64,000 bases of DNA from Alphaproteobacteria bacterium (GTDB lineage: Bacteria > Pseudomonadota > Alphaproteobacteria > UBA7887), in assembly GCA_030739735.1 (NCBI GenBank), contig JASLYQ010000013.1, positions 1-64,000 on the forward strand, in the 5' to 3' direction. The translations under genes were made by a program, and so were the position numbers. The notes below the pieces were generated by a model, which saw only the letters and a program-made list of their open reading frames with translations, was not told where the DNA came from and ran no database searches. Of this stretch, positions 21,929-64,000 are shown in pieces. Within the stretch, counting starts at the first letter, position 1, and the number at the start of each line of letters is the position of its first letter.

Positions 21929-21940
21929 AAGGAGAACGAT

Positions 21941-22594: not shown

Positions 22595-22609
22595 GGAAGA
22601 TTCTGACTA

Positions 22610-25318: not shown

Positions 25319-25355
25319 GGCAGGCGCGCCCCCGCAAAAGCGAAAAGTGGTGGCC

Positions 25356-46212: not shown

Positions 46213-46225
46213 GGGAGCGAGAGAC

Positions 46226-47254: not shown

Positions 47255-47773
47255 ATGGCACGTCTCTTCGCCATGATCGAATGGCTGTCCGAGCGCATCG
47301 GGCGGCTCTTCAGCTTCCTCTTTCTCATCTGCATGGCGATCATCGCCTACGAGGTGGTGATGCGCTACGGCATCAATGCGCCCACAATCTGGGCCCATGA
47401 CGTCACCACGGCGCTGTGCGCGACAGGCTTTTTACTGAGCGGGCTCTATACCATGCAGCGGCGCGCCCATATCCGCGTGTCGCTTGTGTACGAACACCTA
47501 CCTTCAGCCGTCCGCGACGTCCTCGACGTAGTCAATAGTCTCATCATTTTAGGTTTTCTCGGGCTGCTGGGCTATCAGTCAACCAAGAGCGCGATCACCT
47601 CGGTCAGCATCGGCGAGACCGCGGGCACGGCGTCGCAGTTGCCGTTACCGGCCATCGTGAAGTCGGCGCTGGCGACTGTTTGCATCCTCATGTTCATTCT
47701 GGCGCTGGTGCATCTGATCCAGTCGCTAACACGCCAGCCTTCAGGCGAACCGCGTAGCGTGGACCAAACGTGA
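47255..47773 (+). CDS. dctQ: TRAP transporter small permease DctQ
   Basis: 172-residue four-helix membrane protein: FSFLFLICMAIIAYEVVMRY (conserved VMRY), WAHDVTTALCATGFLLSGLY, and AHIRVSLVYEHLPSAVRDVL, all typical of DctQ. It begins 9 bp after the second dctP and overlaps dctM by 4 bp. Confidence 0.92.
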   Translation: MARLFAMIEWLSERIGRLFSFLFLICMAIIAYEVVMRYGINAPTIWAHDVTTALCATGFLLSGLYTMQRRAHIRVSLVYEHLPSAVRDVLDVVNSLIILGFLGLLGYQSTKSAITSVSIGETAGTASQLPLPAIVKSALATVCILMFILALVHLIQSLTRQPSGEPRSVDQT

Positions 47774-49307: not shown

Positions 49308-50510
49308 TCAGAACTTAGTGTTAAAGTCTATGCGGAAGCGCTTCCCGTCCTGCGTGCTGGTAATGGCATCGACGATATAAAGCCGGGCGACTAGGTTCGT
49401 TTTGCCAGAGATCGCAAAGGCGGTGCGAAACTCGTGGCCACGCAGATCACTCGAATCGGTCTGGTTAGCTGAGCCCCAGCGCACCCAATCATCCTGCGCG
49501 TAGGAAGCATTAACTGCCAGAGTCTCGATACGGGCAAAGTAGTAGCCGACCAGCCAATCTCCCCATTCCTTCAGCTTACCAACCTTGGCCGAGAGTATGA
49601 AGCCGTCACGCTCGTTGCGATTTGCCACGGTAAAGGCGTTGGAATCGCTTGCCGAATAGCTCTCGAAGTTATGCATGAAGTCAGCACCGAGTGTGATCGG
49701 CATATCCATGGCCAACAACTTCGCCTGTACACTGACGACGCCAATCTGGTAGTCCCTCGCGCCGTTACCGTTACGTATGTTGACTGCGCCGTCCTTGCCC
49801 TTCATGTCGAAATAGCCGGCTGCGGCGTTCAGTTTTATACCCTCCGCGACATCACCAGAATACTTGAGCTGCCCGGCGATCATTTTGCCGAGCTGATGCG
49901 ACATCATGCCGTCCGGCAACGCGAAGACGCCTGTGGTGACCGACAGTTTGCCAACGCCCGTGTCGAAGCCGCCGCCGGCGGCGCCGCCGAGTAGGGTCAC
50001 ATCGTCATCCCAAAAATGCTCGTTCTGTTTCCAGAACGGAAAGCCGTTGCTCCCACCCCAGACCCACACTGGGTCAAGGCTGACCTTAGCAAAATACTTG
50101 TCGAGAACGCCGCTACGCTCTCCGTGGTCGTCGCTCGAAAAGTCGGCGATCGTCGCATGCGGAGACTGCTGCGAGCGCTGGTTACCGCTGCGCGCGCGCA
50201 CACCGAACTCGAGTTCATCGATCGGCTTGTACTTAAAGCCAAATCGGGCACGAATGCGGGCGCGCGTGCGGTCGGTGCGCATGGCGCCGTTAGCGCGTTG
50301 AGAATCCCAGTCGAATTCCTGACGGGCACGAAAGTCGCCATAGACCTTGAGCGGGCCGCCTTCTACCAGCGCAACGTCGCCACTGGCCGGGCCGGTCGCA
50401 AGCAGCGAGACAAATCCGGCCACGAGGCCAGCTACCAGCAGCCCGCCACCCCCACCAGTACTTGCATTCGGCCCTTCAGAGCATGTTCTCTTGTGCTTCG
50501 ATCCGATCAT
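49308..50510 (-). CDS. Putative outer-membrane porin
   Basis: 400-residue beta-barrel protein from MIGSKHKRTCSEG (50510). Signal segment (LLVAGLVAGFVSLLATGPASG), then GGPLKVYGDFRARQEFDWDS and alternating amphipathic strands such as ARIRARFGFKYKPIDELEFG and DWLVGYYFARIETLAVNASY, ending in phenylalanine (FRIDFNTKF), the usual C-terminal signature of outer-membrane barrels. It resembles the Porin_5-type putative porins. The open frame extends to 50678 but the signal peptide supports the 50510 start. The gene is bracketed by near-identical direct repeats, and separated from the hemG-type gene by a 353-bp gap. Confidence 0.8.
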   Translation of the reverse strand: MIGSKHKRTCSEGPNASTGGGGGLLVAGLVAGFVSLLATGPASGDVALVEGGPLKVYGDFRARQEFDWDSQRANGAMRTDRTRARIRARFGFKYKPIDELEFGVRARSGNQRSQQSPHATIADFSSDDHGERSGVLDKYFAKVSLDPVWVWGGSNGFPFWKQNEHFWDDDVTLLGGAAGGGFDTGVGKLSVTTGVFALPDGMMSHQLGKMIAGQLKYSGDVAEGIKLNAAAGYFDMKGKDGAVNIRNGNGARDYQIGVVSVQAKLLAMDMPITLGADFMHNFESYSASDSNAFTVANRNERDGFILSAKVGKLKEWGDWLVGYYFARIETLAVNASYAQDDWVRWGSANQTDSSDLRGHEFRTAFAISGKTNLVARLYIVDAITSTQDGKRFRIDFNTKF

Positions 50511-50863
50511 AATAGGAACTCTTTCAATTCCACTAAGTGTTGAAAATAGGCTTCGCGCGCCCCTGAACGTGGCGGATATGTCCCCACCGTACAGATTACA
50601 GTGGAGTCCGTAGCATGGTCTGGTAACACGCCAGTAACAGTCCGCTGATGCACGGCCAGCAACAGTGCCCGATAACAACTGAAACGGCCGTATTCTGGAT
50701 TACTGAAAAAGAAATCTATCCCCGTTATTTAATCATTCAGAGCCGACTCTTACAAACTACTGTGGGGCCCGCGGCATATATGGTAACACACCAGTAACAC
50801 TCACTCGTCTCGCATACAGATGCTACACTATGTGTATTTGGACAAGGATGACCTTAATTTGGG
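50511..50863. repeat. Porin upstream region with direct repeat copies B and C
   Basis: No gene. Copy C (50766-50867) repeats copy A: GGTAACACACCAGTAACA at 50782 and the core at 50811-50860. Copy B (50607-50640) has only the first part (TAGCATGGTCTGGTAACACG then CCAGTAACAG). Further CAGTAACA/GATAACA-like words occur at 50656-50679. Copy C ends at the stop of the minus-strand protoporphyrinogen oxidase gene, exactly as copy A ends near the porin stop. The porin promoter must lie here; no certain -35/-10 pair was identified. Confidence 0.7.
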
Positions 50864-52270
50864 TCAAATTTTCGCCATGTCTGCGAATGATTCTTGCATC
50901 CAGACCTCATCGCGGCCGGCTTCCATAAGATAACCTGCCACCTGCTCAGCTGTTTCGCCCGCCCGCTCCAAGCAGGCCGTCACTGAAACGCCATCAAAGT
51001 AGTTCCCGCTTAGGAACAGTCCCGGGTGCTCTGTTAAGGCCATGTGAATGTCCGCCATGCGGGCGCCGTGACCCAGATCAAGCTGCGGAATGCCGCGCGA
51101 CCAGTGGCGCACGCGCGCGACAGTGGGCGGGCCGACGGCACCAACAAGGTCGTGCAGTTCGCCTTCTACCAGATCGATCAGGTCTCGTTCCGGCAGAGCC
51201 GCGGCCTGCGGCGCCCTCCGGCCGCCGACATAGGCAGCAAGAGCTACCTGACCCTCCGGTGCACGCCCCGCAAACATGGTGGAGCAGAACAACACCCCTG
51301 AGACCAGGCGCTGTTCGCTGCTTGGCGTCAGATAGCCGAGACCGTCGAGCGGGTGCGAGATGTGGCGTCGCGTATAGCCCAGAAAAACTACCGCCAGCGG
51401 TGGTGCAGCAATTGCCGCCAATGCCTCGCAGGACACCGGTTGCAGGGACTCAACGAGGCCGGCAGCGACATGTGGCTGCGTCGCGATCACCACGGCGCCG
51501 GCATCGATGGTGCCGTGCCGCGCCGTCTCGACGCGCCAGCGCCTGCCCGCTTGGCGCAGGCGGCGGACGGCGACCCCCGTGTGCAAGGCCGATCCCAGAC
51601 CCGCGGCCAGCGTTTTCGGTAGGGAACCGACACCGTCGCGCCACGAGAATAGCCGCCTTCCGGGCATCGAGCGTGCCGCCATACGCGCCTTTGCAGCGGC
51701 GACAAGGATCGAGCCGTGACTAGCCTCCATTTTCGCCATACGCGGAAACGCCGCCTTCAGAGATAGAGACCCGGCATCGCCGGCAAACAACCCGCCGACC
51801 AAAGGATCGACCAAGCGCTCAGCAAACTCGCGGCCAAAGCGGCGAGTGAAGAACGCAGCAACGCTTTCATCAGCGCCGCCACGCCGCGCCGGAACCAAAG
51901 GTTCGATCAGTAATCGCGTCCTGCCTGCGAGCGAAAGATAGTTGGAAGCGAAGAGTCCGAGTGGGCGCACACTGATGCCGTGCAGACGGCCGTCGCGAAC
52001 CAGATAACGCTGACGCACACCGGCCCCTAAATCACAACGCTTGGCGTCGAGGCCGAGCTTGTGCGAGGCCTGCAAAGCCACAGGTGAACCGGCATTCAGA
52101 GAGCTTGGCCCGTGCTCCATGAGAAAGCCGCCGATACGCTCCGAGACAGCATTGCCGCCGGCACGGACCTGGCGCTCGAGTACCGCGACGCGCAGGCCCT
52201 TTTCCCTCAGCGACTGTGCCGTCGCTAGACCCGAGATGCCGCCGCCGATAATAGCAACATCGAAGCTCAT
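50864..52270 (-). CDS. hemG: Protoporphyrinogen oxidase, HemY/HemG(FAD) type
   Basis: 468-residue flavoprotein that oxidises protoporphyrinogen IX (or coproporphyrinogen). FAD-binding VAIIGGGISGLATAQSLREK, GFLMEHGPSSLN, LVDPLVGGLFAGDAGSLSLK and the C-terminal GLFLSGNYFDGVSVTACLE are characteristic of the oxygen-dependent PPO family. It starts at 52270, overlapping the radical SAM gene by 4 bp, so it is the last gene of the cytochrome operon and not a stand-alone heme gene. This implies a tetrapyrrole task linked to that operon. Confidence 0.85.
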   Translation of the reverse strand: MSFDVAIIGGGISGLATAQSLREKGLRVAVLERQVRAGGNAVSERIGGFLMEHGPSSLNAGSPVALQASHKLGLDAKRCDLGAGVRQRYLVRDGRLHGISVRPLGLFASNYLSLAGRTRLLIEPLVPARRGGADESVAAFFTRRFGREFAERLVDPLVGGLFAGDAGSLSLKAAFPRMAKMEASHGSILVAAAKARMAARSMPGRRLFSWRDGVGSLPKTLAAGLGSALHTGVAVRRLRQAGRRWRVETARHGTIDAGAVVIATQPHVAAGLVESLQPVSCEALAAIAAPPLAVVFLGYTRRHISHPLDGLGYLTPSSEQRLVSGVLFCSTMFAGRAPEGQVALAAYVGGRRAPQAAALPERDLIDLVEGELHDLVGAVGPPTVARVRHWSRGIPQLDLGHGARMADIHMALTEHPGLFLSGNYFDGVSVTACLERAGETAEQVAGYLMEAGRDEVWMQESFADMAKI

Positions 52271-53532
52271 GGCCCCCCCGATCGCCGCCACGGTGGCGCA
52301 TCGCCGAAGCGCCGCTTGGCAAGCTCACTCAGGTGCTCGGCGGTGACGACGGACTCGCCAAGGTTTCGTGCGTGGGCCTCGGCACGCTGGCGCACGATAC
52401 GGCGCACGAAAGACGGCACGTGCCCGAGCCGGGACTGCGCCTCGTCGCTCCAACGCAGGCTGTCGCCACGATCTGGTAAGGGCTCGATGACAGCTTCGCC
52501 GCCGGGCTGATAGTCGCAAAGAAAGTCCTCGCCCATCAGTTCGCCGTCGCGTGCCAAAGGCCGCGCCCGACAGCCACCGCAGAGCTTGACATATTCGCAA
52601 GCGCCGCAGCGTCCCTCGAGCTTGGGCTTGCGCAAGGCCTCGAACATCGGTGCCTCAGCCCACAGCGTCGCGAAGGACTGCGCTCGCAGCGAGCCGACGG
52701 TCTCTTCCATGTAGGGGCAGGCGCTGAGATCGCCTTCGGGGGTGACACGGCAATAGCGGGTGCCGGCAAGGCAGCCACCAGCCTCGTAGCCGTCTATTAG
52801 TGTAATCGGCAGCGGGGGCGTCATGGCCATGGCCATACGCTTGAAATGCGGCGCACAGCGGGCGCGCACGAGCAGCTCAGTTTCGTCGCGTGCAGCTTCG
52901 GCAACGCGCCGCAACACGTCCTCGTATGTGGCGCCGCTGATGTTGCTCATGCCGGCGCCGCGACCCGTGCAGACGAGAAAGAAGATGTTGAGCACCGCCG
53001 CGCCAGCCGAGCGCGCAAAGGCCACCATATCCTCGAGTTCGCCACCGTTGTCGTCGGTGACTGAGAAATGCAGCTGGAACATGAAGCCGGCGCGACGGCA
53101 GGCATCAATGCCGGCGAGGGTCTTCTCCCAAGCACCCGACGCGCCACGGAAGGTGTCATGCCGTGCCGGGTCCAGGGAATCAAGACTGATGCCGACGGCA
53201 CTGACCCCGGCCTCCTGCAAGGCTACAACGCCTGCATCGTCGAGCAGGCAGCCATTAGTGCCGACCACTACCATCAGCCCGAGGCCGCTGGCATGTCGAG
53301 CGAGCTCGTGGATATCCGGGCGTAACAGCGGTTCCCCGCCGGTGAGCACCACCATGGTCTCGTCGCTTAGGGCGGCGATGTCGTCAAGGATCCCCTTGAC
53401 CTCAGCAGTGGCAAGCTCTTCCGGCCCACCATCGCGGCGCGTACCGGCATCGAGATAGCAGTGCTCACAACGCAGATTGCAGCGCCGCGTTAGATTGAAG
53501 GCGACCAGGAATGGCGGTGCCGGGTCAGCCAT
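52267..53532 (-). CDS. Radical SAM/SPASM protein with C-terminal PCP_red domain (NirJ/AhbD-like)
   Basis: 421 residues. Radical SAM core: NLTRRCNLRCEHCYLDAGT (the [4Fe-4S] CxxxCxxC), VVLTGGEPLLRPDIHE, VGISLDSLDPARHDTFRG. The SPASM-type auxiliary cluster region is CRVTPEGDLSACPYM and CGACEYVKLCGGCRARPLA. The organisation matches heme-modifying enzymes such as NirJ and AhbD. Uniquely, the last 60 residues (LRWSDEAQSRLGHVPSFVRR then ARNLGESVVTAEHLSELA) match the small C-terminal domain of protochlorophyllide reductase subunit B (PCP_red, PF08369). Start at 53532 (MADPAPPFLVAF), overlapping the upstream gene by 8 bp. Confidence 0.85.
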   Translation of the reverse strand: MADPAPPFLVAFNLTRRCNLRCEHCYLDAGTRRDGGPEELATAEVKGILDDIAALSDETMVVLTGGEPLLRPDIHELARHASGLGLMVVVGTNGCLLDDAGVVALQEAGVSAVGISLDSLDPARHDTFRGASGAWEKTLAGIDACRRAGFMFQLHFSVTDDNGGELEDMVAFARSAGAAVLNIFFLVCTGRGAGMSNISGATYEDVLRRVAEAARDETELLVRARCAPHFKRMAMAMTPPLPITLIDGYEAGGCLAGTRYCRVTPEGDLSACPYMEETVGSLRAQSFATLWAEAPMFEALRKPKLEGRCGACEYVKLCGGCRARPLARDGELMGEDFLCDYQPGGEAVIEPLPDRGDSLRWSDEAQSRLGHVPSFVRRIVRQRAEAHARNLGESVVTAEHLSELAKRRFGDAPPWRRSGGP

Positions 53533-55174
53533 CCTCGTCCATTCCCAACCGATGCCCGCCGGCACCCATGGTGCTCTCCATGACGCATCGTGATTCGGCG
53601 AGGCCGTCCTCAACAGCTTCCAGTGTTACCTCGCCGAGGCCAGCATCACGGGCATTGACTTCGATGCGCCGCTTGACCGAGCCGCGCACCATCTCCGGCA
53701 CTCTGGCGAGACGCGCCAATGCCGTCGCGGTCCAGGTCATGGACAGCACGCCATCGTCTTCCAGAAATGGCCGCACGTGCTCTTCCGACACCACAACGGC
53801 ATCATCGCGCCGGGCGCGCTTCTCAGCGCGCAGGCGCACGGTAGCCGCAAGAGAGGTATCGGCTACGCCATCGAGCAGCCGCATCGCCTCGGCCGACCAT
53901 TCCAACGTCTCGTCAGCAGCCATGCCGCCGCCACGCTCGGGGCAGAAGCGCTGCGTCGCCTCCTCCATCAGTCCCGAGGTAATCATCGTGTGCCCACTCT
54001 CCTGGGCAAAGCGAATGATCGCCATGCGCACCATCTGTCTCGGGCCCTCTGGCACGCGCTCGAGACTGCGCTCAGCCTCTGGTGTCCAGGCGATGGTCTC
54101 GCGCGCCACCGCATCGGCCGGCGGCGTGTAGGTAGATTGACCCAGCCAGATGTGGCACGGCGCCAGGCGCAACAGGTTCTCGGCATTGCCGCCGATGTCG
54201 AGATCGGCATCGGCATGGATGCCGGTTTTGCCGATCAGCAACAGACTGGCGCCAACGACATCGAGATATTTGCTGATCGCCTGGTAGGGCTTGCCGTCAA
54301 GGAGCTTGCAGGTCAGGTGAGCGTCCTCATCCTTGGCGATGCCTGCCGCGATGTCGAGATGCGACTGGTAGATCTTGGCGATGCCGTCATCGATGATTTC
54401 CTCGTGCAGCGCTTCCTGTTCCTTAAAACGGAAGGTCTTGCCTGCCTCCTCGGAGAGCACCCCGGAAATCTTGTTGAAGGCGACATAGTGGAAATAGGGA
54501 TCGTAGGCGGCGACCGCATGCACCGGTGCAGCAAGCTCGCGGCCCATGCGCAAGGCGGTCTTGAGGGCGGCGAAGGCGCGCGGCGAGCCGTCGAGCGCGA
54601 CCACCAGGGGACCGTCGCCGATGGCGTGCCCGGCATCGCGGATGACCAGCGCGTCAATATCGCAACGCCGCACCACGCGTTCGCAAACCGTGCCGATGAC
54701 AGCGCCCGGTACGGCTCCCAACCCCAGCGCGCCGAGTGCCATAAGATCGAAATCTCCGCTGTTGGCAGCCTCGACAATGCGCCGGTAATTCTTGCCTTCG
54801 GGGCTGAGGCGGCGATAGGGGACCTCGGCCGTGGCGCAGGTCTCAGCGGCACTATCGTGATAGCTGTCGCTGATCACGTCTAGCCCACGTGTGATCAAGT
54901 CGTCGTGCACGACGCGCTGACGCTCCATCTCGTCTTCCTGACGGTAGCGATCAGGTAAGCCGCCTTCCATCTGGCGGAAACGGCGGTCATGCAACTTGGC
55001 GGCATATGCGTGAATGCCGGTGACCTCGCCACCGGCGAAGCCAACGATGCGCAAGGCTTCGGCCAACGCCCGGTCAGCGCGTTCCGAGGCATCTAGTGCC
55101 ACCAATATGCGCCCACCCAAGGCAGGCTCTCTGGCAATGGGGATCGCAGTTTCGGTTTGCGCGGTCTGTGACAT
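53525..55174 (-). CDS. Fusion of two universal stress domains and three PCP_red domains
   Basis: 549 residues starting MSQTAQTETAIPIA after a good GGAGG. Residues about 20-180 form one UspA-like domain (ILVALDASERADRALAEALR, LMALGALGLGAVPGAVIGTV); about 185-370 a second (LVVALDGSPRAFAALKTALR, LLLIGKTGIHADADLDIGGN). Three PCP_red-like repeats follow: IAWTPEAERSLERVPEGPRQ, LEWSAEAMRLLDGVADTSLA, MTWTATALARLARVPEMVRG. PCP_red is otherwise known from the C-terminus of ChlB/BchB, where it contacts a tetrapyrrole. With the radical SAM gene this makes four such domains in two adjacent genes. A tetrapyrrole-binding or carrier role is inferred. Confidence 0.85.
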   Translation of the reverse strand: MSQTAQTETAIPIAREPALGGRILVALDASERADRALAEALRIVGFAGGEVTGIHAYAAKLHDRRFRQMEGGLPDRYRQEDEMERQRVVHDDLITRGLDVISDSYHDSAAETCATAEVPYRRLSPEGKNYRRIVEAANSGDFDLMALGALGLGAVPGAVIGTVCERVVRRCDIDALVIRDAGHAIGDGPLVVALDGSPRAFAALKTALRMGRELAAPVHAVAAYDPYFHYVAFNKISGVLSEEAGKTFRFKEQEALHEEIIDDGIAKIYQSHLDIAAGIAKDEDAHLTCKLLDGKPYQAISKYLDVVGASLLLIGKTGIHADADLDIGGNAENLLRLAPCHIWLGQSTYTPPADAVARETIAWTPEAERSLERVPEGPRQMVRMAIIRFAQESGHTMITSGLMEEATQRFCPERGGGMAADETLEWSAEAMRLLDGVADTSLAATVRLRAEKRARRDDAVVVSEEHVRPFLEDDGVLSMTWTATALARLARVPEMVRGSVKRRIEVNARDAGLGEVTLEAVEDGLAESRCVMESTMGAGGHRLGMDEDG

Positions 55175-55176
55175 GG

Positions 55177-55380
55177 TCAAGCCTCCTGTCGGCCTCTGAT
55201 GGCACCGACGACATAGACGGTGACACCGGCCACCATCAGCAAAAGGAAGGGATTTTCGGGCGCGGTTCCACCGCGCCATACGAGCAGACTATCGAGGATA
55301 CCGAGAAAGATAAGCACCACGCCGACCAGCCGGGTTTTGACCCCCCGGCGCGGCATAAACGCTTGCGCTGCCTTAGACAT
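55177..55380 (-). CDS. Small two-helix membrane protein
   Basis: 67 residues from MSKAAQAFMPRRGVKTRLVG at 55380. Two hydrophobic stretches (LVGVVLIFLGILDSLLVW and PFLLLMVAGVTVYVVGAI) with short basic ends. It overlaps the stop of the upstream cytochrome gene by 8 bp and ends 2 bp before the USP fusion, so it is embedded in the operon. No family was recognised; possibly a small structural subunit of the membrane complex. Confidence 0.7.
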   Translation of the reverse strand: MSKAAQAFMPRRGVKTRLVGVVLIFLGILDSLLVWRGGTAPENPFLLLMVAGVTVYVVGAIRGRQEA

Positions 55381-56917
55381 CGGCCTTGCGTCGTCTTGCC
55401 GTTGCACTGCGCTGCCACCAGGCCTCGCCGGCAGCGATCAGGGCGGCAATGAGCAGAGCAACGATGATTGGTCGCGCGCTCCCCGGCGGCTCGAGCAGCA
55501 GCCAATACCAAGTGGTCAGGGTATGGCGCGAGCCGCGCTCGGCATTGCTGCCGTCCCAAGCGGCAAAGGCTATGGGGATGAAACGCCCCTCTTCGAAACC
55601 AATGTCGGCCTCGACATCAACTGGCGTCAGCGGTCGCGTCATGACCACGCGCCAGGTGCCGTTGGTGTAAGTGCCAGTGGCTTGCAGGCCGGCGGCGGCA
55701 GCCTCACGCGGCACGATGTCGGCGAAGCCTCTGGCATTCATCAGCACAGCGCTTTCGGGCTCCTCGGTCGTGCCGCTGCTCCAGCGCCAGATGTTGACCG
55801 GATTGCTCGCATCGCCCATGCCGAAATACGGTTTCTCTACACCACCCGGTATCGCCACCGGAAACTGCACGGCGACGCTGTCCTCGCCCATGTTGGGGTC
55901 GGCAATAGCCTCGGCATCGGTGTCGCCGGGGATGGACTGGGTGCGGTCGTCCCATTCGAGCAGGATGGCGAGCGTCTCGTCGTCATAGGTGACGCGGGCG
56001 CTGATGGTATCGTTCGACGGCGTGAACAGGCGCTCGTCAGCGATGATCTGCGGCACCAGCAAGAAGGTCGTCGGCGCGATTTCCGCCCAGCGGGCATCGT
56101 CGGGTGCGGCAGGCACGCCGCCGTCGACGCGAACCGCCTTAATGACCGTGTTCTCTGCCCGCGGCACGCGCTCGGTCTCGGCCAGGGAAGTGACGTAATT
56201 GGCGACATGCCAGCGATCATCGATGCTCAGGCGCTTCTTGTTCACAGGATCGTCGAAGGACGGCATCTGGGTGCCCGGAATACCCACGGTCATGCGCGTG
56301 AAGATGTCGCGCGGATCGTTGCTGGCGCGGAAAGTCCAGGGCTTGGTCATGTTACGCGGCCAGGTGCGCTCGCCGCCGTCGTCCTTGAGCTTCTTGACCG
56401 CATCGCCGCGGCCATCATGACCATGGCATTCGGAGCAGCGCTGGGATTCGTGGAACAGGTCGCGGCCCCGCGCGATACTCTCGGCCGAGGTCGCGATCTG
56501 GGTGCCGTAATCGATTTGATCTGTCGGCTCCTCCTCTTCGAGGCCGGCGAAGATCTTGATATAGGCCACGAGATCCCACATCTCAGTCTCGCTCAGCACA
56601 TCGCTCCAGTCCGGCATGGCTGTACCGGGCATACCGTCGCTGATCATGCGATAGAGGTCAGCATCGTTTGGCACGAAGTCGTCGAAACCAGTGGTTTTGA
56701 ACTTGTAGGCACCTTCGCTGAAGTCGCGCGGCGGCGGGTTAAGTCGCTCAGCCGCCGGTCCGGCGCCGTCGCCATCCTCGCCGTGGCAACCGACACAGTG
56801 CTCGAAGTAGATGACCTCTCCGTTGTCGGGGTCACCCTGCTGAGCATGCACCGGCAATACCGCAAGCGACAGGGCCAAGACCCCCGACCAGGCCAAGATC
56901 TTACCGACGTTATTCAT
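55373..56917 (-). CDS. Diheme cytochrome c fused to ethylbenzene-dehydrogenase-type heme domain (copy 1)
   Basis: 514 residues: signal peptide (KILAWSGVLALSLAVLPVHA), heme motifs CVGCHGEDGDGAG and CSECHGHDGRGDA, then an EB_dh-type domain (LAILLEWDDRTQSIPGDTD, SVAVQFPVAI, NPVNIWRWSSG, WRVVMTRPL, IAFAAWDGSNAERGSRHTL) and a C-terminal helix (IIVALLIAALIAAGEAWW). EB_dh domains are heme b-binding gamma subunits of type II DMSO-reductase enzymes (EbdC, SerC, ClrC, Nxr-associated). Here no catalytic alpha/beta partner is nearby. The signal peptide supports ATG 56917; the frame extends to 57103. It overlaps the upstream gene by 8 bp. Confidence 0.85.
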   Translation of the reverse strand: MNNVGKILAWSGVLALSLAVLPVHAQQGDPDNGEVIYFEHCVGCHGEDGDGAGPAAERLNPPPRDFSEGAYKFKTTGFDDFVPNDADLYRMISDGMPGTAMPDWSDVLSETEMWDLVAYIKIFAGLEEEEPTDQIDYGTQIATSAESIARGRDLFHESQRCSECHGHDGRGDAVKKLKDDGGERTWPRNMTKPWTFRASNDPRDIFTRMTVGIPGTQMPSFDDPVNKKRLSIDDRWHVANYVTSLAETERVPRAENTVIKAVRVDGGVPAAPDDARWAEIAPTTFLLVPQIIADERLFTPSNDTISARVTYDDETLAILLEWDDRTQSIPGDTDAEAIADPNMGEDSVAVQFPVAIPGGVEKPYFGMGDASNPVNIWRWSSGTTEEPESAVLMNARGFADIVPREAAAAGLQATGTYTNGTWRVVMTRPLTPVDVEADIGFEEGRFIPIAFAAWDGSNAERGSRHTLTTWYWLLLEPPGSARPIIVALLIAALIAAGEAWWQRSATARRRKADV

Positions 56918-57677
56918 GATCCCAAGACCGCGGCACGTGGCCGGTGTAGTCGTAGAGGAAAAGGATGACCTTCCAGATCTCATCCTCGCTGAGGAAGTCC
57001 TGCCAGACCGGCATCGACGACAGCCACGGGGTCGCCTCCTTTGGCAGGCCCGGTCCACCCGTGGCGATGCGCCAGAAGAGAAAGGATTCCTGTAGCTGGG
57101 CAATGGTGCCTATGTCTTGAAAATTGAGCGGCACGGGATTGAGTCCGGCTGCATAGGGGCCATTGCCGTCTAGTTTGTCGCCATGGCAATACTGGCAATT
57201 TCGGATGTAGACTTCGGCGCCTTCGGCGACGGCCTCGGCAAAGGCCTCGGGATCCTCGCTCTCAAGGACGCGGTAGGGGTTCTCCAGGGTAAGCAGGTCA
57301 TAGCGCTTACCGAACAGCGTCGCCGCGGCCGGCGGCGCCGGATGGATAGAGCGCAACTCCAACGGTGCCTCTAAACTCGGCAGCATGCGCATGAACGCGA
57401 ACAGGCCGGCGGCCAGGGGCAGCAACACGAAGACAACATTGCGCGCCAGCTTGCGGCTTGGATCGTCGACCAGCAACTTGATCGGCGCCACCAGCGCCGC
57501 CGTGCTCTCGTCACTGAAGGTGAAGACCATGAAAACGCCGGCGAAGACGAAGAACATGTACATGTTCAGCAAGCTCGCCGGAATCGGCTGACCGAGAATG
57601 ACGTCGAAGACAACGATGAAGCCGAGGTAGACCCCAATCAGGACCAACGCCGCCTGTAAGAGCCGGGGGACTCTCAT
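56910..57677 (-). CDS. Membrane-bound mono-heme cytochrome c (copy 1)
   Basis: 255 residues: three N-terminal helices (LLQAALVLIGVYLGFIVVF, LLNMYMFFVFAGVFMVFTF, NVVFVLLPLAAGLFAFM) and a periplasmic domain with one heme site (NCQYCHGDKLDGNGPYAAG). The C-terminal GGPGLPKEATPWLSSMPVWQ holds a likely distal methionine. The soluble domain is closely similar to the gene at the right edge of the window (GGPGLPTEATPWDSAMPQWK). It overlaps both neighbours (8 bp and 4 bp). Confidence 0.85.
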   Translation of the reverse strand: MRVPRLLQAALVLIGVYLGFIVVFDVILGQPIPASLLNMYMFFVFAGVFMVFTFSDESTAALVAPIKLLVDDPSRKLARNVVFVLLPLAAGLFAFMRMLPSLEAPLELRSIHPAPPAAATLFGKRYDLLTLENPYRVLESEDPEAFAEAVAEGAEVYIRNCQYCHGDKLDGNGPYAAGLNPVPLNFQDIGTIAQLQESFLFWRIATGGPGLPKEATPWLSSMPVWQDFLSEDEIWKVILFLYDYTGHVPRSWDHE

Positions 57678-58507
57678 TTTAGGCTCACGAGATAGCTGAC
57701 CAACATCTCGAGCTCCTGCGCGTACATCTGTTCGCCGTAGTCGACCGGCATCATGTCGGCCTCGAAGCCCTCGGCAATGTCGGCGTTGGGATCGAGGATG
57801 GCACGGCGGATATAGTCGCTCTCGCGCGAGGCACCGATCGTGTTCAACTCGGGGCCGAGTTCGCCTTCCTCCTCGCCCACCTTGTGGCAGGCGCCACAGG
57901 CGAATTCGAGAATCGCATCCTCAGGCGTGGTCAACGGCGCGCGCGGCTCGGCCTCCGCCGCACCCTCGTCTTCGTCCCCGCTTGCCGCCTCGTCGGCCAT
58001 GTCATTGGGAATGATCACCGTAACCTCGAGCCCGCCGAGGTCCTGCAGGAAAGCGGTGACCGCCGCGATCTCCGCCTCGGACAGGTCTATGGCACCGCCC
58101 AGCACGCTCGGCATGGGGCTTTCCGTGTCGTTGCTGCCAGTCTTGCCGAAGCCGGCGACGACGAAAGCCGAGGGCTCGAGCATAGATTCGCGCAAGTAGC
58201 TTTCACTATCATCTGCGGTGCCTTCGTAACGCAAGTCGGCGAGCCGCTCCTCAGCCACCACGGCCGCCTCTTCGAGTAGCGGCGCCCGACCGCCAACGGC
58301 GTTGTGGCAGAGCGTGCAGGTGCCCTTACCCTCATAGATGCGCCCACCCAGCGCGATAAACTGCTCGGGCGTGATTGCCGACAGGTCGACCACCTCTGCC
58401 TTAGGCGGCGGTGCCGGCTCGATGCGCGGGATGCCAAAATTGGAGAAGCTGGCGAAGACGCCGACGATGACCAGGGCGAAAGCCACCACCTTGAGGACAT
58501 TGCTCAT
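57674..58507 (-). CDS. Membrane-anchored diheme cytochrome c
   Basis: 277 residues from MSNVLKVVAFALVIVGVFAS (58507), an N-terminal anchor. Two heme sites: GTCTLCHNAVGGRAP and FACGACHKVGEEEGELGPEL. Possible distal methionines are in SPMPSVLGG and ADMMPVDYG. The linker between the domains is acidic (DEAASGDEDEGAAEAE). The start overlaps the bd-like oxidase stop by 4 bp, so the two are probably made together; it is a natural electron-delivery subunit for that oxidase. Confidence 0.85.
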   Translation of the reverse strand: MSNVLKVVAFALVIVGVFASFSNFGIPRIEPAPPPKAEVVDLSAITPEQFIALGGRIYEGKGTCTLCHNAVGGRAPLLEEAAVVAEERLADLRYEGTADDSESYLRESMLEPSAFVVAGFGKTGSNDTESPMPSVLGGAIDLSEAEIAAVTAFLQDLGGLEVTVIIPNDMADEAASGDEDEGAAEAEPRAPLTTPEDAILEFACGACHKVGEEEGELGPELNTIGASRESDYIRRAILDPNADIAEGFEADMMPVDYGEQMYAQELEMLVSYLVSLK

Positions 58508-60303
58508 GCTTCGTCCTCTTGCCAATAGCCCGTCGCGGCCGTCTTGCGGCTGCTGATCTGGCTTAGCCAGAAGACGAATATGACCATGACCATGAACAGC
58601 ACGACGCCGATCGAGACAACGTTGGCAGCGGCGCCGAGGGTGAGCGTGTAGGCATCAACCGAGTTGTCGCGCACCAGGTTAGTCACGTGCCAGTGCTGGC
58701 GGATGCCGGAGCGGATATAGCCCATTAGTCCCATCAGCCAGGTAAAGGCGACGGCCAACAGGAACAGCGCATATTGCGAGCGCTCCGAGACGCGGCCCCA
58801 GTGCAGAGGTGCCACCTCGCGCGAACGGCGATACATGACCACATCGAGAGACGTGCTGACGACGATCACGATCAGTGTTGTCAGGACCTGCGGGACCGAG
58901 GCCGCGACCTTGTAGACGGTGTTGGTGAAATAGCCGTGATAGATACCAAGGAAAAGAATGTTGAGGATCGCGGCCAGATATAATGCCACCTGCACCGCAT
59001 TGCCTGCCGCCACCCAGGAAACTGTGGGAACCTTGTTGGCGCGGCGGTAGAGCTGGAAGCTGAGCGCGGTGAAGATGATCATGATGTTCACCGCCGTGTT
59101 CTTGGCGGGCATGATCCCGAGGGGACCGAGAATCCCGTGATAGGGCCCGCCGAGCGCACGCAGCTCGGCATTGGTCAGCACCAGCGTGTGCGGCGTGAAC
59201 CAGACCAGAAAAGCGCCAACCAGCACGATGGCGATATATTTTATGTAACGGTAGTAGCGCACACTGCCGTCGCTGCGCCCCATGCCGCACCAGAGATAAT
59301 AATTAGCCGACAGGAAGAGCGAGCCGATCAGCACCGCCTGGATAATGAACAGCCAAGCGAAAACGCCACCCATCAGGGTGATGCCCATCTGCTGACTGTA
59401 GGCATAGATTTCGGCGGTCAGATAGTAGCCGGCAAAGGGCAGCGGCAGCAACGCCGAGATGGCGATGAAGTTAGCGTTATAGCCCATCCAGTCGTAATGG
59501 GCACGCTCGCCAGAATTGCGCGCGTTGAGGAACTTGAAGGCGGCATAGGCGCCGACAATGGAGCCGCCAAAAGCGACATTGGCGACTACCCGGTGCAGAT
59601 TTATGGGGTTCCACAGGTGATTGTGCATGGCACCCCAGACGTCGCCCGTATAGACGCCGCCGGCATCGATTCCGGCCGGGCTCATCATGAAAGTGAGCCA
59701 TGCATTGGCGAGCAGCATCAATACCGTGCCAACAGCATTGAGCAGCAATCCCAGCGTAAGATGCGTCCATTTACGGAAGCCGCCCTGCAGCCAATGCCAG
59801 CCGTAATAGTATATGTAGAGTACCGCGCTCTCGGCGAAGAACAAGAGCGCGTAGTAAAACATCGTGTCCTTGAACACGCCCGACAGATAGAAGAACAGGC
59901 CGGGGTAGAAGACGACCAGGCTGAACACGAGGAAGCCGCCGAGGATTGCAGTCAGGGAATAGGCGGTGATGCTGACCTTGATGAACTCGTAGGCCATGTC
60001 GTCGTAGCGCTTGTCGCGCTTGGCCATACCGACGGCCTCGATGATCAGCACGAAGATAGGCACCGCCAGCACAAAGGCGGCAAACCAGAGGTGCAGCTGG
60101 GCCGCTAGCCAGACCACGATGCGGCTGTTGACGCCAGGGATACGCGGATAATCGGCATCGGTGAGCTCGGGCGGTGTTATCCCGGCAATTGCCGTTGCCT
60201 CTTCCTCCTGGGCGAAGCCCCCGACGGGCTCGAGTACCAGCAGCGCCATAAACAGCACAAAGGCCAGCAATGGCAGCGCACGTATGATCGCCATTCCCCG
60301 CAT
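58504..60303 (-). CDS. Cytochrome bd-like oxidase subunit I (CydA superfamily)
   Basis: 599-residue membrane protein with about 14 hydrophobic segments after a signal-like N-terminus. It aligns with CydA in plan: histidine in AAQLHLWFAAFVLAVPIFVL (E. coli H19 region), FFAESAVLYIYYYGWHW, ANAWLTFMMSPAG, and NPINLHRVVANVAFGGSIVG (H186 region). The C-terminal half has SGIRQHWHVTNLVRDNSVDA. There is no long quinol-binding Q-loop and no cydB next to it. Instead it is surrounded by c-type cytochromes, like the bd-superfamily members of nitrite oxidisers and anammox bacteria. Cytochrome c-linked electron flow is inferred; whether it reduces oxygen is unknown. An ATG at 60294 is an alternative start. 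Confidence 0.82.
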   Translation of the reverse strand: MRGMAIIRALPLLAFVLFMALLVLEPVGGFAQEEEATAIAGITPPELTDADYPRIPGVNSRIVVWLAAQLHLWFAAFVLAVPIFVLIIEAVGMAKRDKRYDDMAYEFIKVSITAYSLTAILGGFLVFSLVVFYPGLFFYLSGVFKDTMFYYALLFFAESAVLYIYYYGWHWLQGGFRKWTHLTLGLLLNAVGTVLMLLANAWLTFMMSPAGIDAGGVYTGDVWGAMHNHLWNPINLHRVVANVAFGGSIVGAYAAFKFLNARNSGERAHYDWMGYNANFIAISALLPLPFAGYYLTAEIYAYSQQMGITLMGGVFAWLFIIQAVLIGSLFLSANYYLWCGMGRSDGSVRYYRYIKYIAIVLVGAFLVWFTPHTLVLTNAELRALGGPYHGILGPLGIMPAKNTAVNIMIIFTALSFQLYRRANKVPTVSWVAAGNAVQVALYLAAILNILFLGIYHGYFTNTVYKVAASVPQVLTTLIVIVVSTSLDVVMYRRSREVAPLHWGRVSERSQYALFLLAVAFTWLMGLMGYIRSGIRQHWHVTNLVRDNSVDAYTLTLGAAANVVSIGVVLFMVMVIFVFWLSQISSRKTAATGYWQEDEA

Positions 60304-60312
60304 GCCGCCGCC

Positions 60313-60474
60313 TCAGTGGCTCAAGAACAGCGACAGCCCTTGCAGGCTCATCACCGCCAGATCAAGCAGCAGAAAGGCGCCAACGAAGACCGCAAAAGCG
60401 ACCGCAAAAGGCGCAAGGTAACGCGCCAACACACCAACTGCCTTCGTCTCGGATACCGCTTCGACGCCACTCAT
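60313..60474 (-). CDS. 53-residue single-helix membrane protein
   Basis: Found by reading the gap upstream of the bd-like gene: MSGVEAVSETKAVGVLARYL then APFAVAFAVFVGAFLLLDLA and VMSLQGLSLFLSH. One transmembrane helix in the middle. Its ATG overlaps the stop of the next small gene (ATGA), and it ends 9 bp before the oxidase start. Small single-helix proteins often belong to bd oxidases (CydX) and other terminal oxidases; that role is inferred from position only. Confidence 0.68.
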   Translation of the reverse strand: MSGVEAVSETKAVGVLARYLAPFAVAFAVFVGAFLLLDLAVMSLQGLSLFLSH

Positions 60475-60569
60475 AGAAACCACCAAAAAAAGACTGCGAG
60501 CGCCACCGCAACCGCCGTGAACAACGCCGGACCGGCCCAGGCCCGCGGCCCGCGAGCATGCTCGCTCAT
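60471..60569 (-). CDS. 32-residue single-helix membrane protein
   Basis: Very short frame: MSEHARGPRAWAGPALFTAV then AVALAVFFWWFL and stop. It has a basic cytoplasmic start and one helix ending in aromatic residues. The stop overlaps the following ATG by 4 bp. The tight coupling and membrane-protein composition support it being real, although it is too short for family assignment. First gene of the uninterrupted overlapping string 60569-50864. Confidence 0.55.
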   Translation of the reverse strand: MSEHARGPRAWAGPALFTAVAVALAVFFWWFL

Positions 60570-60731: not shown

Positions 60732-61088
60732 CTAACCGGGCTTGCCTTCGCAGGCGCAGAGCGTGCGCAGATGCAGGACTAGTGCGTCGATATCCTCCTC
60801 TTTCAAGGTCTGCGACCAGGGCGGCATCATCGGCGATTTTCCGGCCGAGGGCCCGCCATCGAGAATGACGTTCTTGATGTCAGCATTGGACAGCTTGTTC
60901 ATCTCCTCAGCATTGGTGAAATTACGCGGATTGACGGGAAACTCTGGCGATACATTGAGCCCGTCTCCCTTGCCGCCATCGCCATGGCATTGCGAGCAGT
61001 AGAACTTGAAGACCTGCTCCACGTCGGCTGCTTGGGCTGGGCCCGCTACCAGAATCAGCCCTATAAATATCGCTGCGGCTCTCAACAT
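60732..61088 (-). CDS. Mono-heme periplasmic cytochrome c
   Basis: 118 residues with a signal peptide (LRAAAIFIGLILVAGPAQA). One heme site, FYCSQCHGDGGKGDGLN, and a likely distal methionine in SPMMPPWSQTL. Class I-like small cytochrome, as found in many oxidase clusters. Odd feature: the C-terminus carries two extra cysteines, TLCACEGKPG. It lies 13 bp downstream of the diheme cytochrome gene. Confidence 0.87.
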   Translation of the reverse strand: MLRAAAIFIGLILVAGPAQAADVEQVFKFYCSQCHGDGGKGDGLNVSPEFPVNPRNFTNAEEMNKLSNADIKNVILDGGPSAGKSPMMPPWSQTLKEEDIDALVLHLRTLCACEGKPG

Positions 61089-61101
61089 TGCTCCTGCTCC
61101 C

Positions 61102-61761
61102 CTATTCGAAGTGGGCGACATAGGCCGCCACCGCCTTGATCTTCTTCTCGCTGAGCAGTCCGGAGAAGGTGGGCATCGCCTTGAACGGCTTGAACACGTC
61201 CGGATTCATCAGATAGGCGAATATCCAATCGGGGTTTAGGCGGCTGCCGGCACCGATCAGCGACGGGCCACTGAAACCGCCGGTGAACTTCTTCTTGGTG
61301 GGAAACTGGTGACAGCCCGTGCACGGCATCTTCTTGGTGAAGATATTGCGGCCCTTGGCGCCCTTCTTGGGCTTAATCACACCGGCCTCGACCGCGTCGG
61401 AAACCAGCGTCATGAGAAACTCGTTAACCGTGGTAGCATCATCGGCGCCGAGTGCCGGATGGTTGTTCGGATTTGGCTCGTTGGACGCATTGTAGGCCCG
61501 CGGCCGGATCGGCTGGGGATCCTGCAACCAGGCCGCAAGCCATTCGGCCTGGAACTTGCTCCCCGCATACCAGAGCTCGGGCCCGGTCTTCGCCAGCTGG
61601 TCAGCGATGCTGGTCTCGCGCGCCGGACCTTGGGTATAGTGGCAATCGGTGCAGCCATTGTCGCTGAAGGTCTGTGCGCCAACCGCCGGGTCGGCGGCAG
61701 CGGGCGCAGCGGCCAGAACGGCAAGCGCGCCGGCCAACAATGCCAGAGATGTTACTCTCAT
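61102..61761 (-). CDS. Diheme periplasmic cytochrome c
   Basis: 219 residues, signal peptide LALLAGALAVLAAAPAAA. Two heme sites: NGCTDCHYTQGPARETS and MPCTGCHQFPTKKKFTGG. Conserved segments between them (LWYAGSKFQAEWLAAWLQDP) and at the end (WIFAYLMNPDVFKPFKAMPT) include likely distal methionine ligands. The start at 61761 overlaps the upstream EB_dh gene by 4 bp; the frame is open to 61962 but lacks a signal peptide there. Confidence 0.87.
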   Translation of the reverse strand: MRVTSLALLAGALAVLAAAPAAADPAVGAQTFSDNGCTDCHYTQGPARETSIADQLAKTGPELWYAGSKFQAEWLAAWLQDPQPIRPRAYNASNEPNPNNHPALGADDATTVNEFLMTLVSDAVEAGVIKPKKGAKGRNIFTKKMPCTGCHQFPTKKKFTGGFSGPSLIGAGSRLNPDWIFAYLMNPDVFKPFKAMPTFSGLLSEKKIKAVAAYVAHFE

Positions 61762-63419
61762 TTTCCACTCTCCACTGTTTGTGGTTGTGCGGACGTCTCG
61801 CGCTCCACTTTGCGCATTAACCAGTAGCCAAGCGCCCCGGTAATGAGCACTGCGAGCACCGCGAACAGATAGACCGATATCGGAATCGGCGATTCGAGCA
61901 CCACGAAGTACCAGCTCGACAGACTCATGATGAGCCCGTGTTCGCCGTTCGAGCCATCCCAAGCGTTGATCGCCATGGGGATGAACTGGCCGCGCGCGAA
62001 CTGCACGTCGTTCTTGTCATCAGTGAGCAGTGGACGCCGCATCACCACCTGCCAACGGCCCTCGGCCCAACCCGCACTGCCCGTGATCTGCTGCTCGTCC
62101 TCGGCCTGAGGCTTTGGTGCCTGGCCCCAACCTCGCACCAGCGATTCCTCAACCACTCGCTCGCCCTCGCCTGAGCGGTCCGCTAGCCAGGTCCACAGGT
62201 TCACCGGCGTGGAAGCGCCGCCACGCAGGAAATGAGGCTTGGCAGTGCCTTCAGGCGCGCGCACCGGAAATTGCAGCGCCACCGAGTCGCGGAAAGTCTC
62301 GAGTTTTCGCGGAATGGTGTCGATGGCCGGGACGTATGAATTGAAGGCGCCAGGCTGGCTGATCTCGCTGGCGTCGAACTCGGCTTCGACGTCGTGCAGC
62401 CGATCCTCGAAGGGATCGTCCCATTCGAGGAGAAAGGCGATTTCCTTGTCGTTGTTGATGGCGCGGATGCTGACCAACTCGATGCTCGGGTTCTGCCAGC
62501 GCGGCGCCACTATCACCTGGCCGGCCAAGCGCAGATCGATCGCTGACGCGGCCTCCCAGGCCGGATCGTTCGGCGTGCTCGGCACCTCGCCCTCGATGCT
62601 CAGCGCCGCCAGCACCTGGGCGTCCGTGGCCTGGTGTTGCAGCGACTTGATGAAGTTCGCTAGATACCAACGCTCCTCGTCGTTCAGCGCCTTGGCAAAG
62701 GACGGCATGGGCGTGCCGTTAATGCCGGTCGAGAAACGCATGTAGATATCTTCAACCCTGGCACCGCCCTTCAGCTTCCAGGGGAGGGTGACGTTGCGGA
62801 TACGGATCGGGAAGCCCCAGTCGTCCTTGCGGTCGAACGCCTTCTGACCATTGCCGCGCCCCTGCTTGCCGTGGCATTCCCAGCACTTGGCGCGCTCAAA
62901 GATTTCCTGCCCCTTGGCGATGGTTTCCGCGTTGTAGGCCGCCAGGTTGGCCGGCAGCGAGACCAACTTGCCGGTGGCGATCGGGTCGAGTTCGGGATCA
63001 TCAAACTCGAAGGCGAAGGTCTTGATATAGGCGATGACCTGCCAGCGCTCTTCTTCACTGAGCCCGCTCTTGATCAGGCCGCTGTCGAAGGCCTGCATGC
63101 CGGTGCCAGATAGGCCGCGACTGACGGTACGGAAAAGGTCCTCGTCGGTAGGCAGTTCGCCACTTTGCGTGGTGCGAAACTTAAACGTGCCGAGGGTGAA
63201 ATCACGCGGCCGCGGGTCGAGGAACTGCGCGGCGGGACCTTCGCCATCACCCATCAGTCCGTGGCAGAAGCTGCAACGCCGGATGTAGATGGCGCGGCCC
63301 TGCTCGACGAATTCTTCAGTAACCTCTGGCATCGGCGCACTCGGCGTATCGGCCGCCACGGCCGGTAGGGCCGCCAGCAGGGCGACCGCACCGACCGTCA
63401 TGGCTTGCAGCCAAGTCAT
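61758..63419 (-). CDS. Diheme cytochrome c fused to ethylbenzene-dehydrogenase-type heme domain (copy 2)
   Basis: 553 residues with the same layout as the gene at 55373: signal peptide (MTVGAVALLAALPAVAA), heme sites RRCSFCHGLMGDGEGPAA and AKCWECHGKQGRGNG, EB_dh-like domain (IAFLLEWDDPFEDRLHDVEA, SVALQFPVRAPEG, TPVNLWTWLADRSG, MAINAWDGSNGEHGLIMSL), and a C-terminal helix (SVYLFAVLAVLITGALGYWL). The start at ATG 63419 overlaps the upstream stop by one base. The longer frame to 63584 lacks a signal sequence. It is paralogous to copy 1, so the cluster carries two related cytochrome modules. Confidence 0.87.
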   Translation of the reverse strand: MTWLQAMTVGAVALLAALPAVAADTPSAPMPEVTEEFVEQGRAIYIRRCSFCHGLMGDGEGPAAQFLDPRPRDFTLGTFKFRTTQSGELPTDEDLFRTVSRGLSGTGMQAFDSGLIKSGLSEEERWQVIAYIKTFAFEFDDPELDPIATGKLVSLPANLAAYNAETIAKGQEIFERAKCWECHGKQGRGNGQKAFDRKDDWGFPIRIRNVTLPWKLKGGARVEDIYMRFSTGINGTPMPSFAKALNDEERWYLANFIKSLQHQATDAQVLAALSIEGEVPSTPNDPAWEAASAIDLRLAGQVIVAPRWQNPSIELVSIRAINNDKEIAFLLEWDDPFEDRLHDVEAEFDASEISQPGAFNSYVPAIDTIPRKLETFRDSVALQFPVRAPEGTAKPHFLRGGASTPVNLWTWLADRSGEGERVVEESLVRGWGQAPKPQAEDEQQITGSAGWAEGRWQVVMRRPLLTDDKNDVQFARGQFIPMAINAWDGSNGEHGLIMSLSSWYFVVLESPIPISVYLFAVLAVLITGALGYWLMRKVERETSAQPQTVESGK

Positions 63420-64000
63420 CAGTGCCCCTCCGGAATACGCGGTGTTTTTTCGGCCAGGTCGTACTCGGCCATGATGATCTTCCAGCGTTCTTCTTCGGTC
63501 AGGTTCAGCTTCCATTGTGGCATCGCCGAATCCCACGGCGTCGCTTCCGTCGGCAGGCCAGGCCCACCGTTCTCGACACGCCAAAAGGTGTAGCCTTCGA
63601 CGATGGTCTCGATGGTGCCATTGTCGGTAAAGTTAATCGGCCTGAGCTTGAAGCCATCTGCCATCGGCCCGTCACCGGCGACGCTGTCGCCGTGGCAGGG
63701 ACGACAGTTCATACTGTACAGCGCGCGCCCCTCGAACAGCGTCTTCTCCACCAGAGCGGCGCGCGCCACCTCGCGGTCGACCTCGCCTGCAGCAAGCTGG
63801 GCGAGAAAGGCCTTGACCGGCTCGAAGGGCAGGAACTCGAGCATGTGGTCGGGCTCGGTCTCGTCCATCCACAGCTCAACATCGTCCATGACCTGCGGGA
63901 TCAGCGTCACTTCACCCGCCTCAGCTTCGGCGATAAAGACGTCGATGTCGGCATCGCTGGGATCGCTGAACGGGTTCTTCAAATCCTCATTGGCGCGCGG
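63419..64000 (-). CDS. Mono-heme cytochrome c (copy 2), 5' end probably beyond right edge
   Basis: The frame is open to the window end; about 193 residues are visible. One heme site, NCRPCHGDSVAGDGPMADG, then GGPGLPTEATPWDSAMPQWK and EERWKIIMAEYDLAEKTPR, matching the soluble domain of the 56910 gene. By analogy a membrane segment should lie further upstream. A TTG at 63982 (MKNPFSDPSDADID) is an alternative start. The stop overlaps the EB_dh copy 2 start. Confidence 0.85.
   Translation of the reverse strand, partial: PRANEDLKNPFSDPSDADIDVFIAEAEAGEVTLIPQVMDDVELWMDETEPDHMLEFLPFEPVKAFLAQLAAGEVDREVARAALVEKTLFEGRALYSMNCRPCHGDSVAGDGPMADGFKLRPINFTDNGTIETIVEGYTFWRVENGGPGLPTEATPWDSAMPQWKLNLTEEERWKIIMAEYDLAEKTPRIPEGH

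Follow-up and report, generated by a model that had tools for sequence, protein, structure and literature searches.

In Nitrospira moscoviensis, a bd-like oxidase is clustered with an alternative NxrC, which has one transmembrane helix (TM) and two hemes, and with two c-type cytochromes; this set is duplicated nearby and is conserved in Nitrospina and in anammox bacteria (PMC6606698). The bd-like protein of Nitrospina keeps the heme b ligands and has membrane helices in place of the quinol loop (PMC3578206). Such proteins are now termed OR-N type and are thought to accept electrons from cytochrome c (PMC10839748). The stretch analysed here, referred to as the window, is 64,000 nt of contig JASLYQ010000013.1, in which a ten-gene operon on the minus strand (60569-50864) joins a bd-like cluster to a triad of genes encoding USP-PCP_red, rSAM-PCP_red and PPOX. 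The favoured reading, to which we assign a probability of roughly 0.5, is that a complex of the bd superfamily, linked to cytochrome c, has a tetrapyrrole-making or -delivering module of its own.

The core of the cluster (CydA-like, diC, mC and EBc) is of the known bd-like/alternative NxrC kind, the kinship being one of gene content. With the Nitrospira, Nitrospina and Kuenenia clusters it shares a CydA-like protein without quinol loop or CydB, an EB_dh-containing alternative NxrC (one TM, two hemes), one monoheme and one diheme c-type cytochrome, and a second copy of the module nearby. Unlike in the accounts of those organisms, genes for USP-PCP_red, rSAM-PCP_red and a HemY-type oxidase are attached here, and where they have NXR, the nearby molybdoenzyme in this case is AioA/IdrA-like. 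A preliminary description of the window, made from the letters alone, had proposed ten tightly packed minus-strand genes, a CydA-like protein lacking both CydB and the quinol loop, and kinship with the clusters of nitrite oxidisers and anammox bacteria. All ten genes were found in the sequence, with domains above curated cut-offs, the two absences were borne out by domain search and structure model, and the kinship is supported by gene content (PMC6606698, PMC3578206). It had further taken the cofactor genes to suggest that the complex needs a modified or specially delivered tetrapyrrole, an idea that draws on the protein families, and it knew of no described system combining a bd-like complex with such genes. 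In the literature searched, which covered few subscription papers and no preprints, we likewise found the triad nowhere described, nor any connection between it and bd-like complexes or the clade III N2O reductase, L-NosZ.

The operon genes are as follows, with coordinates given for the most plausible starts as read from the sequence; neighbours overlap by 4-8 bp or sit at most 9 bp apart.

60471..60569, minus strand: TM-a, membrane peptide of 32 aa with a single helix, opening the operon (open reading frame with ATG start and hydrophobic helix)
60313..60474, minus strand: TM-b, membrane peptide of about 53 aa (open reading frame; 4 bp overlap with TM-a)
58504..60303, minus strand: CydA2, membrane protein of 599 aa that resembles subunit I of the bd superfamily (PF01654; 9 bp gap from TM-b)
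57674..58507, minus strand: diC, membrane-anchored diheme c-type cytochrome (two CxxCH, PF00034; 4 bp overlap with CydA2)
56910..57677, minus strand: mC, membrane monoheme c-type cytochrome (one CxxCH, PF13442; 4 bp overlap with diC)
55373..56917, minus strand: EBc, alternative NxrC-like, with two c-heme motifs, an EB_dh heme-b-type domain and a C-terminal TM (PF09459; 8 bp overlap with mC)
55177..55380, minus strand: TM2, small membrane protein of about 67 aa (open reading frame; 8 bp overlap with EBc)
53525..55174, minus strand: USP-PCP_red, tandem universal stress protein (USP) with PCP_red domains (PF00582 twice, PF08369 twice; 2 bp gap from TM2)
52267..53532, minus strand: rSAM-PCP_red, NirJ2/AhbD-like radical SAM/SPASM enzyme with C-terminal PCP_red (PF04055, PF13186, PF08369; 8 bp overlap with USP-PCP_red)
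50864..52270, minus strand: PPOX, HemY-type (FAD) protoporphyrinogen or coproporphyrinogen oxidase (TIGR00562; 4 bp overlap with rSAM-PCP_red)

Linkage of CydA2 with the triad

A scan of one-per-species genomes for CydA2 gave 195 relatives, and the loci of 80 of these, from alpha-, beta-, gamma-, zeta- and deltaproteobacterial metagenome-assembled genomes (66-81% identity), were analysed. Where flanking sequence is present, nearly all of the 80 keep the order CydA-diC-mC-EBc, with homologues of TM-b directly before CydA2 in about 30 loci and homologues of TM2 after EBc in 60. PCP_red genes fall within the available stretch in 36 of the 53 loci that have at least 8 kb downstream, most commonly as USP-PCP_red, rSAM-PCP_red and PPOX directly after the cassette on the same strand, and of 28 loci with enough sequence, 25 have PPOX after rSAM. 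The triad is inverted in some loci (e.g. L034, L035, L059, L077 and L083), lies upstream in L055, and in others is about 7 kb further downstream. Five seemingly triad-negative gamma loci (L022, L024, L033, L041 and L048) have a PPOX-like match at their left edge, which together with PCP_red matches in the genomes suggests that their triad lies just upstream of CydA1, the CydA2 paralogue described below. As a separate observation, a protein of about 242 aa, conserved and without annotation, is found at L041:14980-15705 and in seven further loci, and in several gamma loci it stands directly after the EB_dh cytochrome, in the triad's place.

At the genome level, PCP_red is present in 38/40 CydA2 genomes and in 1/14 controls, the one being a cyanobacterium. 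Among 158 genomes of the Gallionella-type family, CydA2 occurs in 20, PCP_red in 19 and both in 16, so that PCP_red is seen in 16/20 genomes with CydA2 as against 3/138 without it (Fisher p 1.3e-15, uncorrected for kinship). In the three genomes with PCP_red alone, the contig stops inside EBc in one and about 1 kb after PPOX in another, and is 4.4 kb long in the third. Within a set of 60 alphaproteobacterial relatives, the CydA2 genomes G000 (the source of the window), G003 and G009 have PCP_red, and G052, with a CydA2 at 52% identity that has one in-frame stop, has none; the other three alphaproteobacterial genomes with PCP_red look like BchB carriers from frame size and score. Pairwise distances of CydA2 and of the triad proteins are correlated (0.71-0.82), part of which could come from shared species history. 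Inversions leave the triad linked, and it moves between proteobacterial classes; these repeated rearrangements with kept linkage are better evidence than the kinship-uncorrected Fisher test. A functional association of the triad with the CydA2 cluster is strongly supported. The preliminary description had suggested a search for co-occurrence of the CydA-like gene with the cofactor genes, and had held that the idea would fall if the two never met in relatives; they are found together both in genomes and in neighbourhoods.

CydA1 was not seen in 19/20 Gallionella-type CydA2 genomes, which bears on the idea that OR-N proteins of two CydA types have to pair (CydAA'), and a strong AioA/IdrA-like match was found only in G085 among the Gallionella-type genomes searched. 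Because Gallionella-type genomes carry the triad without either, the triad tracks CydA2 and not CydA1 or the molybdoenzyme, and its assignment to either of the latter was rejected.

L-NosZ lies inside the cluster in nine loci (L055, L064, L070, L076, L078, L079, L087, L089 and L090; examples are L087:15168-18043, L055:1-2688 and L090:11135-12907), accompanied in eight of them by a related c cytochrome. The two proteins scanned score 770-778 bits against NF052460 (cut-off 700), and the hosts are Gallionella-type, Mariprofundus and deltaproteobacterial genomes (beta-, zeta- and delta-proteobacterial). L-NosZ at 658 bits or more was found in 23/80 chosen genomes, with PCP_red in 23/23, and in 0/16 Gallionella-type genomes that lack CydA2 and PCP_red (G100-G106, G108-G116). 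The window's own genome has none (best score 45 bits against the cut-off of 700), nor do many other triad genomes, and elsewhere L-NosZ is found at loci of its own, apart from the triad; the proposal that the triad belongs to L-NosZ in general was therefore rejected. L-NosZ is a frequent partner and not the defining client.

CydA2 and the triad proteins

CydA2 matches PF01654 at 59 bits (cut-off 26.2), with only profile positions 2-231 of 418 aligned. The AlphaFold2 model (m25cdfcae130e; 45 homologues, pLDDT 75.7) is a helical membrane protein from which the large soluble loop is absent, and it matches structures of bd subunit I with a Foldseek probability of 1.00 (VIA Z 27-29, root-mean-square deviation of about 4 over 334-362 residues). 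By profile and fold, CydA2 is a subunit I-like member of the cytochrome bd superfamily. It is not a member of the canonical quinol-oxidising CydAB group, as the quinol loop is absent from the model and no CydB was found among the operon genes by domain search; c-type cytochromes are its partners instead. His71, Glu158 and His237 are invariant in the 45 homologues. His71 and Glu158 correspond in the alignment to the heme ligand His19 and to Glu107 of E. coli CydA. His237, which reaches His186 only after a three-residue shift, is probably the counterpart of that residue, a low-spin heme ligand like Met393. Glu99 of canonical CydA is not conserved. Profile alignment with canonical CydA fails past its first 190 residues, and no counterpart of Met393 could be aligned in CydA2; for Glu445 (GRQPW region), the candidate AGYYLTAE was plausible by eye and was rejected, the local alignment being no better than shuffles. 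The model is also similar to ActC/ActF from alternative complex III (VIA Z 18-21, 6-10% identity), which recalls the proposal that bd-like proteins perhaps act like that complex (PMC3578206). In EBc, the EB_dh domain PF09459 scores 82 bits (cut-off 33), and TIGR03477 scores 113 bits, below its cut-off of 170.

USP-PCP_red carries two Usp domains (PF00582, 92.8 bits, cut-off 24), and PCP_red scores 81.9 bits in this protein and 50.4 in rSAM-PCP_red (cut-off 32.5). The fold is that of a tandem USP, closest by Foldseek to TTHA0350 with ATP and to Rv2623, and each USP domain keeps the G-2x-G-9x-G ATP motif; by fold and motif, the protein is predicted to be a universal stress protein of the ATP-binding type. 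Three PCP_red-like helical units follow the tandem USP in the model of the window protein, and two to four such domains are found in relatives. The loci analysed contain 37 homologues of USP-PCP_red. The USP halves bear long invariant His/Tyr/Met-rich inserts (HAYAAKLHDxRFRQMEGGLP and DPYYHYVAFN...LHEEIID), which are to our knowledge absent from ordinary USPs and would suit a ligand pocket.

In rSAM-PCP_red, Radical_SAM scores 87 bits (cut-off 29.5) and SPASM 29.4 (cut-off 21.5), and CxxxCxxC plus seven cysteines of the SPASM region are conserved across homologues. The protein belongs to the same SPASM radical SAM group as AhbD and NirJ, which it matches over its full length. It differs from them in its scores (308 bits for TIGR04055 and 294 bits for TIGR04545, both under the equivalog cut-off of 500), in its C-terminal PCP_red domains and in being encoded in a genome without siroheme decarboxylase. 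Radical SAM proteins with about 250-280 extra C-terminal residues and further PCP_red-like repeats were seen at L059:4311-6458, L077:4162-6342 and L027:10425-12557. PPOX is assigned to the HemY type by curated profile (TIGR00562, 258 bits, cut-off 97.85), and it matches the Myxococcus PPO structure 2ivd (E 1.7e-67).

In subunit B of light-independent protochlorophyllide reductase (DPOR), PCP_red assists in closing over protochlorophyllide, and tetrapyrrole binding would for that reason be expected of the two PCP_red proteins. While the domain is common to them and to BchB/ChlB, here it sits on USP and radical SAM proteins, often repeated, and the domain search found no nitrogenase-type domain in either, so that neither is a DPOR subunit B.

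The source genome is 98.8% complete (2.6 Mb), and it was checked family by family. HemN (419 bits, cut-off 325), HemW and HemJ (164 bits, cut-off 138) are encoded elsewhere in it. With HemN and HemJ already there for housekeeping heme synthesis, the cofactor genes come on top of that route, and a housekeeping role for the triad was rejected. The genome search found no PCP_red outside this operon, and rSAM-PCP_red is the only NirJ/AhbD-like protein recognised among 13 radical SAM proteins, of which five others were scored with hidden Markov models (HemN, HemW and three PqqE) and the remaining ones were classed by their initial residues, one without assignment. Siroheme decarboxylase (AhbA/B, NirD/L/G/H; PF17805) is absent from the genome, so a substrate of the heme d1 type is not expected and the siroheme-derived heme d1 route was rejected. 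All three PqqE-type radical SAM proteins of this 2.6 Mb genome exceed the curated cut-off; they are at C4:117939, C1:65198 and C1:63962 (L162, L166 and L170).

Possible roles of the triad

In the favoured reading, three c-type cytochromes tethered to the membrane, one with an EB_dh domain, would serve a CydA-like subunit that has the bd fold and b-type heme ligands. From the missing quinol loop and the three c-type cytochromes, the complex would be expected to exchange electrons with periplasmic redox partners and not with quinol, the flow most likely being from cytochrome c to O2 at low oxygen. The HemY-type oxidase would supply porphyrin independently of the housekeeping HemJ, the NirJ2/AhbD-like enzyme would change a heme side chain, and USP-PCP_red would bind the intermediate or product through its PCP_red domains and pass it to the CydA-like subunit, perhaps ATP-dependently. 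The triad would then act on heme and yield a product other than heme b, with CydA2 as the client; we give about even odds to the modified-heme chemistry and to this choice of client. The meeting of three separate tetrapyrrole-linked families in one operon supports this reading. A more far-reaching version is put forward as a tentative possibility. In it, the triad would make and insert an undescribed heme with a modified side chain, and the recipient would be a bd-superfamily complex that works without quinol, is widely distributed among microaerophilic and N-oxide-cycling proteobacteria and, in some lineages, is coupled to clade III N2O reductase.

Several points weigh against a dedicated heme module for CydA2. 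Radical SAM/SPASM enzymes often modify peptides, rSAM-PCP_red stays under the AhbD/NirJ cut-off, and tetrapyrrole binding by PCP_red is unproven outside DPOR. Five CydA2 genomes (G052, G080, G081, G130 and G183) have no PCP_red at all, perhaps due to incomplete assemblies. The published accounts of Nitrospira and Nitrospina make no mention of the triad genes, and related bd-like complexes may do without them. Finally, the triad sits with L-NosZ in some lineages, and its client could in part differ from CydA2.

If the product were ordinary heme b, the triad could be an oxygen-independent side route in which HemY yields coproporphyrin III, ferrochelatase converts this to coproheme, and the AhbD-like enzyme decarboxylates it to heme b with USP-PCP_red as chaperone, providing more heme for a cytochrome-rich complex in microoxic conditions. 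The nearly equal scores of rSAM-PCP_red for AhbD, the heme b synthase, and for NirJ2 agree with such a route, as do the ability of HemY-type enzymes to act on coproporphyrinogen (established for Gram-positive CgoX), the lack of siroheme decarboxylase, which makes a siroheme-derived substrate unlikely, and the largely low-oxygen habitats of the relatives, by record titles. It would, however, be redundant in a genome that already has the oxygen-independent HemN together with HemJ, the AhbD cut-off is not reached, and neither the need for PCP_red domains nor the tracking of CydA2 instead of general cytochrome content would be explained; we regard it as unlikely. A regulatory or protein-modifying triad, with USP-PCP_red as an ATP-dependent sensor or adaptor for low oxygen or redox state and the radical SAM enzyme acting on a peptide or protein of the complex, would account for the ATP motif kept in both USP domains and the tandem-USP fold. 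The solved proteins nearest to rSAM-PCP_red by sequence, SkfB and PqqE, are also peptide modifiers, and in Nitrospira marina, UspA proteins beside respiratory operons increase when oxygen is low (PMC8115632). Against this stand the three tetrapyrrole-type families in a single operon and the curated models nearest to the radical SAM protein, which are heme-modifying; further, no conserved small peptide substrate was noticed beside the enzyme, although no systematic search was made. This role appears slightly less probable again. The triad might instead serve the c-type/EB_dh cytochromes or an enzyme partner in the periplasm, e.g. L-NosZ or the molybdoenzyme system, with only an indirect link to CydA2. 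The position of L-NosZ between EBc and USP-PCP_red in the nine loci, the PCP_red found in every L-NosZ genome, and one contig on which L-NosZ, a cytochrome c, USP-PCP_red, rSAM and PPOX occur and CydA2 is not on the available part all point in this direction. It is the least probable of the alternatives, given that the window's genome and many other triad genomes are without L-NosZ, that L-NosZ stands alone at other loci, that in Gallionella-type genomes the triad is present and the molybdoenzyme is not, and that L-NosZ is by family a copper enzyme.

Neighbouring genes and significance

A second operon, paralogous and on the same strand, lies 162 bp upstream of the CydA2 operon, and the following part of it is in the window.

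60732..64000, minus strand: 3' part of the paralogous operon, which extends beyond the window as far as about 76 kb on the contig
60732-61121, minus strand: monoheme c
61102-61962, minus strand: diheme c
61758-63584, minus strand: EB_dh diheme c
63419-64000, minus strand: membrane monoheme c

Beyond the window, this operon adds another diheme c and CydA1 (726 aa), which is 47-48% identical to CydA2 over the best stretches. Of 43 loci with enough sequence, 29 keep the paralogous operon upstream of CydA2. Past CydA1 come a HEAT protein, the AioA/IdrA-like molybdoenzyme (TIGR02693, 393 bits, cut-off 359), its Rieske partner (TIGR02694, 116 bits, cut-off 96) and two MauG-like diheme peroxidases (contig 64-76 kb, L003). 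In the alignment with AioA, the position of the arsenite-binding Glu203 is not Glu, and the counterparts of His195, Arg419 and His423 are kept, so the substrate of the enzyme may be other than arsenite. The molybdoenzyme, Rieske and two-peroxidase set has the same gene content as the iodate reductase cluster idrABP1P2 (PMC11445184), in a different order.

On its other side, the CydA2 operon is followed by a porin-like gene (49308-50678), about 185 bp beyond PPOX. Elsewhere in the window, a set like that of periplasmic nitrate reductase was recognised by eye on the plus strand (21257-25943; five-heme NapC/NrfH-like, diheme NapB-like, NapA-like and NapG-like ferredoxin), as were two adjacent paralogous TRAP-type solute-binding proteins (45145-47245) before one TRAP membrane subunit pair (47255-49086).

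The function, subunit composition and cofactor of the bd-like (OR-N) complexes of nitrite oxidisers, anammox bacteria and other lithotrophs are without experimental confirmation (PMC10839748, PMC6606698). A dedicated, co-mobile triad would give a concrete prediction, that of a non-b heme or a heme carrier, together with three expressible proteins and a genetic handle on the function of the complex. The presence of clade III N2O reductase and of an arsenite-oxidase/iodate-reductase-like enzyme in such clusters also points to the electron donors or acceptors that the complex may use in oxygen-poor waters and sediments.

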